From contig NZ_KQ758617.1 of assembly GCF_001457035.1 (NCBI RefSeq), forward strand, positions 1,674,001 through 1,738,000: a stretch of 64,000 nucleotides of DNA. Reading direction: 5' to 3'. This DNA comes from Fictibacillus enclensis (lineage in GTDB: Bacteria; Bacillota; Bacilli; Bacillales; Fictibacillaceae). Below the pieces are notes generated by a model. It was not told the origin of the DNA. It made no database searches and saw nothing but the letters and a program-made list of their open reading frames with translations. The position numbers and the translations under genes were made by a program. This document shows positions 1,074 through 42,503 of this stretch, piece after piece; position 1 is the first letter of the stretch; each line of letters starts with the position of its first letter.

Positions 1074-1108
1074 AAAAGAGGCAAAGGGATAAATATCCCC
1101 TTACCTCT
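1074..1108 (-). terminator. Attenuator (intrinsic terminator) in the serA leader
   Basis: Read on the minus strand, a long stem pairs AGAGG and AAGGGAUA with UAUCCCUU and GCCUCU, followed by a short U-run. It starts directly after the 3' end of the riboswitch aptamer, as expected for a transcription-terminating expression platform. Confidence 0.8.
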
Positions 1109-1176
1109 GCCCAGGCGAACGGCAACGACACTATGTGCTCCCTCGCGGTGATCCGCGTTTCGCCAGTTACACATAG
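1108..1176 (-). promoter_or_regulatory. ZTP/ZMP (pfl) riboswitch aptamer upstream of serA
   Basis: On the minus strand a closing stem CUAUGUG/CACAUAG encloses ACUGGCGAA, a small GCGG/CCGC hairpin and GGGAGC. After a linker comes UGCC-GUU-CGCCUGGGCA. The CUGGCG and CGCCUGGGC elements with a 3' hairpin are the hallmarks of the ZTP class, which senses ZMP/ZTP when 10-formyl-tetrahydrofolate is short. Ligand binding would be expected to prevent the terminator that follows. The assignment rests on motif recall, not on a covariance search. Confidence 0.82.
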
Positions 1177-1193
1177 CCTTTAGATTTTGTATC

Positions 1194-27332: not shown

Positions 27333-27472
27333 GTACGTGTGTTTCTGCAATCCCTCTGTCCCGGTCCTTTATGGATCTAGGCAGATTAATACGTTAATCT
27401 TTCCTTCTCAGAAAGTGCAGTTCCTAAATGCAGGATACCGCCTTTTCTACACCTATTACTTTACCACAATAT

Positions 27473-39813: not shown

Positions 39814-41073
39814 TTAAAATTCCTCCAGCCTGCTGATGGTTTCTTCCAGATGATAAAGGTTTGGGTTTAATGACAAGGCATGCTTCAGGACTGTGGATGC
39901 CTTTTCAGGTTCTCCTTCTTCAATCAGAAACATTCCGTATTCTTCTAAAAAGACTTCATGGTTTTTAAAATTAGGATAAGCTGATTCATATTGTCCACGA
40001 GCGGCTTCAAATTCTTCTGCTTCCTTGTAGGCATAGGCGAGGTCCCATGCCATCTCAGGCGTCTCATCTCCCTGTTCCTTTACATGCGTTAGGAGCTCGA
40101 TGATATCATCAAACCGCTCTTCTTTCTTCAGCTGTGAAGACAGATGAAGAACGGCATCTGCATTGGAAGGGTTCAGCGCAATGACATCTCTTGCAAAGCG
40201 CTCACCTTCTTCCTGATTGCCCATTCGATACAAAAGCTTTGCTGCGCGGACTTTCAGGTCTTCATTGAATTCATCCTTGGCAATCCCCTCCCGGACAGCT
40301 TCCAATGCTTCGTCAAGCGCTCCTTCTTCCTCATAGGCAGAAGAAAGCAGGGGATAAAGGGTCGTAAAATCAGGATCAAGGTCTTTTAATTCTGTCAGGG
40401 CTGTAATTGCCGTTTTAAACTCACCTGTTTTAAAGGCCGTCAGGCCATAACCGAACAAACTGTGCAATTCTTTTTTAATCTCCAAGCCTTTTTTGTAGTA
40501 CTCAAGCGCTTCCTCAAACTTGCCTCCTCTGCTCAGCGATTCGGCAAGCCTTAAGTAAAGATCTCCTTCCGGAAGGGTGTTTGCAATCGGTTCGGCTTCT
40601 TTAAAGAAGGCAGCGGCTTTCAGGAAATCGCCCCGTTGTAAATAAAGTTCACCGAGCGCATATGCAAGAACTGGTTCCTCCGGATTGCTTTTTCTGGCTT
40701 TCAGCAGCTTTTGCTCTGCCACTTCATGCAGACCCTGCATGAAGTAAAGGTCAGCCTGCAAAAGAAGGGATTGGACATATGATTCATCATAGGCACTGAT
40801 TTGCCCCAGTATTTCAAGGGCTTCATCTTCTTTTTCCATTTCAATGAGGAGTTCAGCCGCAAAGATGGTAAGGTCGCCTTCTTCCGGATAGAGCGCTCTC
40901 AACTGGGTAACAATCTTTAACGCTTCATCAAGATGGCCCCAATTTTCATAAAGCCTGGCAATGTCATACAAGGTTTGATGATCGGCTTCTTTTCTTAAAA
41001 CTTCAACTAGCTGGATACCCTCCTGAACATGTCCCATTTCAACAAGGGTAATGGCTTCCTGTAACTTTTCCAC
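39814..41073 (-). CDS. ypiA: TPR-repeat protein YpiA
   Basis: The 419-residue protein is built of about ten tetratricopeptide helical pairs (for example EALEYYKKGLEIKKELHSLFGYG and EALEAVREGIAKDEFNEDLKVRAAKLLYRMG). It is acidic and lacks a signal peptide, so it is likely a cytosolic scaffold. I chose the GTG at 41073, 9 nt after AAGGAG; a TTG at 41079 is too close. In B. subtilis ypiA follows aroE; here hisC is its upstream neighbour. Confidence 0.85.
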   Translation of the reverse strand: MEKLQEAITLVEMGHVQEGIQLVEVLRKEADHQTLYDIARLYENWGHLDEALKIVTQLRALYPEEGDLTIFAAELLIEMEKEDEALEILGQISAYDESYVQSLLLQADLYFMQGLHEVAEQKLLKARKSNPEEPVLAYALGELYLQRGDFLKAAAFFKEAEPIANTLPEGDLYLRLAESLSRGGKFEEALEYYKKGLEIKKELHSLFGYGLTAFKTGEFKTAITALTELKDLDPDFTTLYPLLSSAYEEEGALDEALEAVREGIAKDEFNEDLKVRAAKLLYRMGNQEEGERFARDVIALNPSNADAVLHLSSQLKKEERFDDIIELLTHVKEQGDETPEMAWDLAYAYKEAEEFEAARGQYESAYPNFKNHEVFLEEYGMFLIEEGEPEKASTVLKHALSLNPNLYHLEETISRLEEF

Positions 41074-41215
41074 TGGCAAAAACTCCTTCTCTCACTACAA
41101 TTGTTCTATACGATTATTATACATGAGAGTAAGGGTGTACTTCAAAAGGTACGTTTGGCTAACCTTCTATAGACAGGCTATGAGGCCTCTTCCAAAGATA
41201 TGATTGCCTTCCAAT

Positions 41216-41289
41216 AAAAAAATCCCCGACGGTGAAAGCGCTGTCAGGGAAAGCAATAATATGGATAGGAGTGGAGAGAAACCATATTA
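41216..41289 (-). ncRNA. Candidate small RNA between hisC and ypiA
   Basis: Starting about 6 nt after an extended -10 promoter, the minus strand reads into a hairpin AATATGG/CCATATT (41258-41288) with a 17-nt C/U-rich loop UUUCUCUCCACUCCUAU. A short linker and a stem UCCCUGAC/GUCGGGGA with seven U form the terminator. The total is about 74 nt. There is no open frame. The loop is complementary to Shine-Dalgarno-type sequence (GGAGUGGAGAGA), as in antisense regulators of translation. Existence is inferred from sequence only. Confidence 0.6.
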
Positions 41290-41294
41290 GTTAT

Positions 41295-41322
41295 AGTATA
41301 GCAGGTACATAATAAAAATCAA
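41295..41322 (-). promoter_or_regulatory. Promoter of the candidate small RNA
   Basis: TTGATT (41317-41322), 16-bp spacer, then TGC-TATACT (-10 at 41295-41300) with the TG of an extended -10 box, on the minus strand. Confidence 0.65.
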
Positions 41323-41350
41323 CCGTATTTTTCGAAAATTTTGAATACAA

Positions 41351-41383
41351 CAAGAAAGAAGCCAAGCGATGGCTTCTTTCTTG
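41351..41383 (-). terminator. Terminator of the trp-hisC operon
   Basis: CAAGAAAGAAGCCA and TGGCTTCTTTCTTG form a perfect 14-bp stem with a 5-nt loop, just after the hisC stop. The T-run after it is weak. Confidence 0.75.
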
Positions 41384-41390
41384 TGATTTA

Positions 41391-42503
41391 TTATACGGTT
41401 TCCTTTTTTATGCCGGCTGCCGTCTCCAGATAAGTTTCCAAGTGGCTGATAATCTCCTTGTTCTGGATCTCATCGCCTACCGTGATCCGCAGGCTTGTTG
41501 GAAACCCGAGCGCTGCTCCCGAGCGGACAATATAGCCCCTTTCAAGCAAATGCTGAAACAGCTTATTGGCATCTTCATTAAAATCAATCAAAATAAAATT
41601 ACCCTGTGACGGATAATAGGACAGTCCATTCTTCTCGCAAAAGTCGTAATACTGCTTGAGTCCTTTTCTGTTCCTGTCCAGACATGATGCAAGGAAGTCC
41701 TGGTCTTTAATGGCTGCACGTGCAGCTGCCTGGGCAATTCTTGAAGTGTTGAACGGTTCTCTAGCCGGTTCAATGGCCCGAATAATGCGCTCGTCCGCAA
41801 TTCCATAGCCGATTCTTAGTGCTGCCAGACCATAGGCCTTTGAAAAAGTCCGCATGATTACAAGGTTAGGATATTGTGAGAGGTAAGGAATGGTTTCAGG
41901 ATAATCCTCCGCCACCACGTATTCATAATACGCTTCATCACTTACGACGAGAACATGCTCAGGCACCTCGGCCATAAAGGATTCAAAAGCTTTTTGGCTG
42001 ATATAGTGCCCTGTTGGATTGTTTGGAGAACAGAGCCAGACAATTCTCGTGTTTTCATTAATTGCTCCGAGCATGCCTTTAAGGTCATGCTCACCGTTAA
42101 TTAGCGGGACTTCACGGATTTCTGCCCCTTCGATTATTGCATTATGCTTATATTGTGGAAAGGTATGTTCCGCCATCACCGTATTGGTGCCTTCACGCAA
42201 ATAACTTCTTGAAAGAATCTGGACAACTTCGTCCGAACCGTTACCGAAAATGAGTTTTTCTTGTTTAACTCCCAAAAATTCAGAAAGCTCTTCTCTCAGT
42301 TCTGCGCTGTAGCCATCCGGATATAATCCAAGATGAGCGGTTTCTGCAATAATGGCATCACGTACTGACGGGGAGCTGCCATAAGGGTTTTCGTTTGACG
42401 CCAATTTTGTAATTTTAGTCAGACCGTATTCCCGTTTTACTTCTTCAATTGGTTTTCCCGGTTGATAGGGTGTTAAATTCTGCAGTTGTTTTTTCGCCTC
42501 CAC
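41391..42503 (-). CDS. hisC: Histidinol-phosphate / aromatic aminotransferase
   Basis: HisC is a PLP transaminase for histidinol phosphate; in B. subtilis the copy in the trp cluster also makes tyrosine and phenylalanine. The 370 residues show [42 protein letters not shown] and the PLP lysine in [15 protein letters not shown]. The start is GTG behind AAGGG. It follows trpA; the tyrA and aroE genes that follow it in B. subtilis are absent. Confidence 0.93.

Follow-up and report, generated by a model that had tools for sequence, protein, structure and literature searches.

A small RNA gene predicted between hisC and ypiA carries a near-fixed C/U-rich core in much of class Bacilli

A compact minus-strand unit between hisC and ypiA

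Between hisC and ypiA, the minus strand of the Fictibacillus enclensis chromosome carries a promoter, a 5' hairpin with a C/U-rich loop, and a terminator in close succession, which raises the question of whether a regulatory RNA is made here and what its exposed loop might pair with. We analyzed this unit in a 64,000-nt stretch of contig NZ_KQ758617.1 (the window) and in related genomes. Its features, with the evidence for each, are:

41391..42503, minus: hisC, upstream neighbor (gene call, synteny)
41326..41342, minus: A/T-rich upstream element AAATTTTCGAAAAATA, just upstream of the -35 (listings of relatives)
41295..41322, minus: sigma-A type promoter, -35 TTGATT (41322-41317), 16-bp spacer, extended -10 TGCTATACT ending at 41295 (sequence, promoter scan)
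41215..41290, minus: predicted sRNA gene, about 70-76 nt (fold, conservation as a unit; 5' end placed from the -10 position)
41257..41289, minus: 5' hairpin presenting the core as its loop, 8 bp as folded (41289-41282 / 41264-41257), 17-nt loop (predicted fold)
41264..41283, minus: core GGTTTCTCTCCACTCCTATC, presumed pairing region, with the invariant heart TTTCTCTCCACTCCTA at 41281-41266 (conservation)
41216..41250, minus: intrinsic terminator, 8-bp stem (41250-41243 / 41230-41223), then seven T (41222-41216) (sequence, fold)
41233..41246, strand not assigned: cre-like (CcpA) operator TGACAGCGCTTTCA, inside the terminator (consensus match)
39814..41079, minus: ypiA (TPR protein), downstream neighbor with its own promoter-like site at 41145-41116 (gene call)

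The first-pass annotation had proposed this promoter, which both the sequence and a promoter scan confirm, and a terminator with seven U, which is present as a stem followed by seven T. The consensus scan listed the promoter and missed the terminator, whose loop is too long for the scan rules. Its own promoter and its own terminator mark the unit, by sequence, as a free-standing gene. The annotated hairpin was right in its 17-nt loop and wrong in its 7-bp stem, which folds as 8 bp. In keeping with the annotated position after the hisC terminator, the unit adjoins an inverted repeat (41350-41384, terminator-like on the plus strand by scan) that we read as that terminator. The -35 and -10 elements recur across the units of relatives despite a differing spacer, and near relatives share the AAATTTTCGAAAAATA element as AATTTTC(A/G)AAAAA, possibly an UP element.

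Folding of 41290-41215 gave a z-score of -3.8, with 1 of 200 shuffles equally stable; the z-score was only -1.6 once the promoter was included. Rfam 15 assigned no family at gathering score to the unit (E values up to 10 give weak matches, the best 0.88), and found no match at threshold in the loci of 16 diverse relatives. Elsewhere in the window, Rfam places a ZMP/ZTP riboswitch (RF01750, 63.9 bits, 1102-1180, minus strand) and a pan motif RNA (RF01749, 61.5 bits, 27352-27444, minus strand).

The core is conserved while the rest of the unit drifts

Our unbiased test of conservation was a search of 397 genomes of the order for the 25-nt element ATGGTTTCTCTCCACTCCTATCCAT. It is present in 72 genomes from 27 genera and nine families and, with 3 mismatches permitted, had zero mismatches over the 25 nt at the main site of all 72; the reversed pattern gave 0 matches in the same 397 genomes. 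In a sample of the class, the 17-nt core was found within one mismatch in 193 of 398 genomes and 82 of 146 genera, some of them chance matches. When 60 relatives were searched at the DNA level, the match spanned almost the full unit in all six genomes of the same genus and in two further genera of the family, g3 and g4; in g2 and a few other families it covered the hairpin, with or without the promoter. A scan of named stretches found at least 117 that match, 80 of them listed by name. Genera among the matches listed include Paenibacillus, Cohnella, Brevibacillus, Aneurinibacillus, Ammoniphilus, Thermoactinomyces, Melghirimyces, Shouchella, Marinococcus and Halalkalibacter. We found no match on phages, plasmids or viral contigs. 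Matches at contig ends were considered as possible rRNA, a reading rejected by the lack of any Rfam match there.

For comparisons of structure we used 138 units collected with the motif TTTCTCTCCACTCCTA[TG], so that invariance of the core columns is built into this set. In 122 of the 138 units the local fold is predicted to leave at least 80% of a 15-nt core unpaired. Promoter, exposed core and terminator recur in relatives, with drifting stem and terminator sequences. Folding predicts a stem enclosing the core in the window's unit and in one from Shouchella, and none in the one examined from Paenibacillus. The part that stays invariant is therefore a linear stretch of 16-20 nt rather than the hairpin, a point absent from the first-pass annotation. 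Conservation of the unit is far beyond chance. Absence of promoter, loop and terminator from relatives had been named as an observation that would count against the proposal; all three were looked for and are conserved. The proposed sRNA-like gene is upheld as a discrete unit that has a promoter, an exposed C/U-rich loop and a terminator, and relatives keep this gene far more than its flanks.

The chromosomal setting is mostly retained. Among the matches listed, 105 named loci of at least 5 kb were scored for synteny, most of these stretches showing one side only; hisC/trpA upstream and/or ypiA/ypiB/ypiF/qcrA downstream lie on the same strand in 83, the same neighbors occur in the other orientation in 15, and no such neighbor was found by homology in 7. 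The hisC end directly precedes the sRNA in the window; across the synteny loci the hisC start is often 2-4 kb away, and it lies 2.3-3.8 kb upstream in many Paenibacillus and Brevibacillus loci. By homology, ypiA was not found in many Paenibacillus loci.

Some genomes carry two paralogous sRNAs that share GGTTTCTCTCCACTCCTATC and have other flanks. These were identified among the second matches fetched, a subset of all second matches, and fall in f73 (L235-L240, L242, L243) and f68/g178 (L244-L247), the latter inferred from its promoter to be Brevibacillus-like. The f73 paralogs differ before the core, with TTAACACCTTAACTAGCAGTTAT in one type and TGATACCATTGTTCA in the other. "Second copies" in Pseudalkalibacillus-like genomes were rejected as paralogs, being the galT ribosome site read backwards, and other fetched second matches (such as L241, L251, L253 and L257) look by eye like chance coding matches, of which we estimate about 10 in 398 genomes.

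Diverged cores are rare (GGTTTCTCTCCACCCCTATC, GGTTTCTCTCCGCTCCTATC, GGTTTCTCTCTATTCCTTTC). A sequence model run over 74 genomes gave 12 with E < 1e-4, three of them known positives; its filters lose weak matches. New diverged cores are those of G489, G475, G421 (f54), G642 (f63) and G541 (f53). Five loci with diverged cores (L487-L491; f54, f53/g173, f63/g227) have promoter and terminator and would be useful for examining co-variation with targets. The gap just upstream of ypiA held no copy with up to 5 changes in 30 core-less loci, a weak test in that this gap is often short and an sRNA elsewhere may sit kilobases away. Of the genomes without a core that were examined, 34 of 35 have ypiA.

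The unit had also been described as having no open frame, which is not strictly true, since a frame of 13 codons, MVSLHSYPYYCFP (41285-41244), starts at an AUG within the core. This AUG is present in 126 of the 138 units and absent from 12. None of the 126 has a Shine-Dalgarno (SD) sequence of -6 kcal/mol or better, the frames end after anything from 8 to 50 codons in the 150 nt that were read, and the encoded peptide agrees across units only over the invariant nucleotides. Because of the missing SD, the limited peptide agreement and the 12 units without AUG, translation of the frame is unlikely.

A CcpA operator signature accompanies the unit

CcpA operators follow the cre consensus TGNAANCGNWWNCA, related forms of which are in print. 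Allowing one mismatch and keeping the CG, we found it in 117 of 138 units against 52 of 4097 equal-length control windows, and exact matches in 59 units against 1 control window, with a consensus that was chosen after the sites had been seen. An earlier palindromic form, counted after setting aside two units that lack a T6 run, had matched 57 of 137 units and 12 of 4076 windows but missed the Paenibacillus sites, which is why we replaced it. In 20 of the 138 units no cre was found even at two mismatches. The window's site lies inside the terminator, and in Paenibacillus the cre fills the promoter spacer (TGAAAACGTATACA). CcpA is described as repressing two sRNAs, RosA (PMC8216469) and RsaI (PMC9266662), and either position of the cre, in promoter or terminator, would fit such repression. 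The signature suggests that the sRNA is probably under CcpA control. The first-pass annotation had mentioned neither this signature nor the spread of the unit through the class.

Ribosome sites complementary to the core

In the window's genome, an exact 14-nt complement of the core occurs only as the sRNA's own antisense. Candidate targets there include an acoC-like acyltransferase (-22.8 kcal/mol), malonate decarboxylase alpha (-21.2 kcal/mol) and a small cytochrome c; the candidates range from -18 to -25 kcal/mol, scores that the background reaches too. The first-pass annotation had offered yppE and trhO as examples of complementary ribosome sites, and neither carries that weight. The yppE site (start 9479, Pfam DUF1798) scores -24.8 kcal/mol, the best of 81 ribosome sites scored in the window, and is only a candidate because it lies at about the top 1% of background, while the trhO site (start 6572) is ordinary at -14.0 kcal/mol. 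The acoC-like, malonate decarboxylase alpha and yppE sites all fall in the top few percent of background, of which any genome supplies dozens.

The general claim that the loop is complementary to ribosome sites fares better in relatives, some of which match perfectly from the SD to the start codon, over 13-19 nt. In nine Pseudalkalibacillus-like genomes, the galT ribosome site AGGAGTGGAGAGAAACCATG is a perfect 19-nt complement of AUGGUUUCUCUCCACUCCU and scores -36.8 to -39.3 kcal/mol; the best of the other 900 ribosome sites of related loci, with galT's nine set aside, reaches -24.7 kcal/mol. Directly upstream of galT lies galK in all nine (Pfam GalT and GalK). The same sequence precedes a lactose/cellobiose PTS IIA gene in one f50 genome (G621; -35.8 kcal/mol). 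In f58, a gene for an acyl-CoA dehydrogenase (Pfam) has 13-17 exactly complementary bases in 4 of 11 sample genomes by the strict pattern, with -31.1 kcal/mol in G463. A HAD gene in G454 scores -32.0 kcal/mol, and in the window's own family a B12-binding/glyoxalase-domain gene of the Fictibacillus-type genome G009 has 13 complementary bases and -29.7 kcal/mol.

These sites are lineage-specific. With rows L373, L374 and L368 left out, acyl-CoA dehydrogenase sites in other families score -8 to -21 kcal/mol, the window genome's -13.4. We rejected galT as a general target: its site is near-perfect in one genus only, and other galT sites score -8 to -20 in a comparison covering 24 of 25 loci (L458 was scored from a wrong start). 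We likewise rejected the acyl-CoA dehydrogenase of f76 (G618, G466): the match sits 74 nt before the start codon, away from the ribosome site, and the gene's own site scores -19.0; in G466 the complement is out of frame with the gene. In the f76 loci L323 and L335 the core complement at this upstream distance is 14 to 16 nt long. An ABC-transporter ATPase of f68 repeatedly has GGAGTGGAGAG as its ribosome site (L305, L307, L311-L314, L317, L319, L321, L322; Pfam for L311) and is a possible conserved target.

Across the class, the pattern GGAGTGGAGAGN{2,9}ATG is no commoner than its permutation (115 vs 123 of 398 genomes). Split by presence and absence of the sRNA, the pattern divides 90:22, after dropping G603, G635 and G733, where the match is the sRNA's own antisense, and the permuted pattern 79:44 (odds ratio 2.28, p 0.009, uncorrected for kinship). 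This class-wide test of targets is weakly positive.

A model for carbon-controlled translational repression, and its rivals

We think it likely that the unit encodes a carbon-controlled, CcpA-linked trans-acting sRNA that blocks translation and is ancestral to much of class Bacilli. With a preferred sugar present, the position of the sites suggests that CcpA would sit on the cre in the promoter or the transcribed terminator and block sRNA synthesis. Once the sugar is gone the sRNA would be made, by analogy with RsaI of S. aureus, and its exposed C/U-rich core would pair with ribosome sites of the form AGGAGUGGAGAGAAACC(AUG) on mRNAs and stop initiation. The mRNAs covered in this way would be selected genes of carbon metabolism.

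A more far-reaching version of this model is tentative, and to us rather doubtful than probable. It holds that this is an undescribed ancient sRNA family of Bacilli whose 16-nt heart was frozen as the hub of a CcpA-linked carbon regulon, and which uncouples galT from galK in one genus. Such a family would predate the split of the Fictibacillus-, Shouchella-, Paenibacillus-, Brevibacillus- and Thermoactinomyces-type lineages and would have been lost in others. Its regulon would comprise acyl-CoA breakdown, galactose and cellobiose, the heart perhaps binding a conserved partner too, and uncoupling of galT from galK would make it a Gram-positive counterpart of Spot 42.

Lineage-specific targets do not fully account for the near-fixed core, which may also have a conserved partner. 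In the strong form of this idea the core mainly binds a conserved partner other than a set of mRNAs, for instance an RNA-binding protein or a different sRNA, or serves as an anti-SD decoy for the ribosome, and the mRNA matches are secondary gains. The heart indeed hardly varies while candidate targets differ between lineages, and the target pattern is overall no commoner than its permutation; we nevertheless consider this strong form unlikely, given that in separate lineages perfect matches fall where carbon-metabolism genes have their ribosome sites, and that diverged cores exist. A complement to multi-copy rRNA would, moreover, give many matches per genome, whereas most matching genomes have one or two.

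The remaining alternatives deny a separate regulatory RNA altogether. One of them reads the unit as a short ypiA leader or attenuator, or as a remnant of the hisC 3' end, which would account for the strand shared with both genes and their closeness in the window; it is very improbable in view of the unit's own promoter and terminator, the promoter-like site of ypiA, the reversed neighbors in 15 of 105 named loci among the matches listed, and the many Paenibacillus loci where ypiA was not found. That the core opens with an AUG in most units might suggest a tiny mRNA for the peptide MVSLHSYP..., or a dual-function RNA, to which we give hardly any credence: the 25-nt search of order genomes shows third codon positions to be no more variable than the rest, the AUG is missing from lineages with GATTTC or AGTTTC, and against it stand also the missing SD sequences and the spread of frame lengths. 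Equally remote is the view that the conserved stretch is a DNA element (an operator) from which no RNA is made. The RNA is predicted here from sequence, which this view would accommodate, but the bounding promoter and intrinsic terminator stay in place while their sequence changes, and the perfect complements fall on ribosome sites.

If the carbon-controlled sRNA model is right, this RNA, present in about half of the class sample at a mostly retained chromosomal place and with an almost unchanging core, would rank among the best-conserved base-pairing sRNAs of Firmicutes. In Paenibacillus, Brevibacillus and similar lineages, carbon control would gain a post-transcriptional arm. The model would also raise the question of why a regulatory RNA nearly stops evolving while its apparent targets change.

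Relation to known small RNAs

Rfam holds RsaI, as RsaOG, and includes the RsaE/RoxS family. As the unit matches neither, despite a similar predicted mode of action, we regard it as a new family. Spot 42 of E. coli pairs with the galK ribosome site in the gal operon. Here too a single ribosome site inside a gal operon is concerned, that of galT, as a candidate in one genus only; Spot 42 differs in being controlled by CRP and high in glucose, and its sequence relation to the unit was compared by Rfam only.

The closest parallel in logic is suggested by the cre signature together with the anti-SD core: RsaI of S. aureus is described as CcpA-repressed, derepressed on glucose starvation and acting on its targets at the SD (PMC9266662). 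It is 111 nt long against about 74 nt here, has no Rfam match at the window, and is described in PMC8216469 as conserved in Staphylococcus and not in Bacilli. RoxS/RsaE shares C-rich potential to pair with the SD and wide conservation, with targets in central metabolism (PMC4409812); in that account no other trans-acting sRNA, apart from 6S, was known to be conserved in both S. aureus and B. subtilis. It is described as having several C-rich regions, about 115 nt and control by ResD and Rex (PMC4409812, PMC8464778), whereas our unit of about 74 nt has one C/U-rich core and no Rfam match in the window or the 16 relatives' loci.

Judged by title or opening of the abstract, none of the papers that our searches turned up describes this RNA; the tables of PMC5670726, which report 27 sRNAs of P. 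riograndensis, could already list the transcript. SR1 of B. subtilis is likewise carbon-controlled, with 139 homologues in Bacillales, and differs as a 205-nt RNA that encodes SR1P and pairs at seven separate regions, in the account of PMC8464778; an SR1-like dual function would call for a translated frame preceded by an SD, and none of the 126 AUG-bearing units has an SD of -6 kcal/mol or better. RosA of B. subtilis is a CcpA-repressed sRNA as well (PMC8216469), described as a G-rich sponge of 92-225 nt (PMC8464778), whereas the conserved part of the RNA predicted here is C/U-rich.
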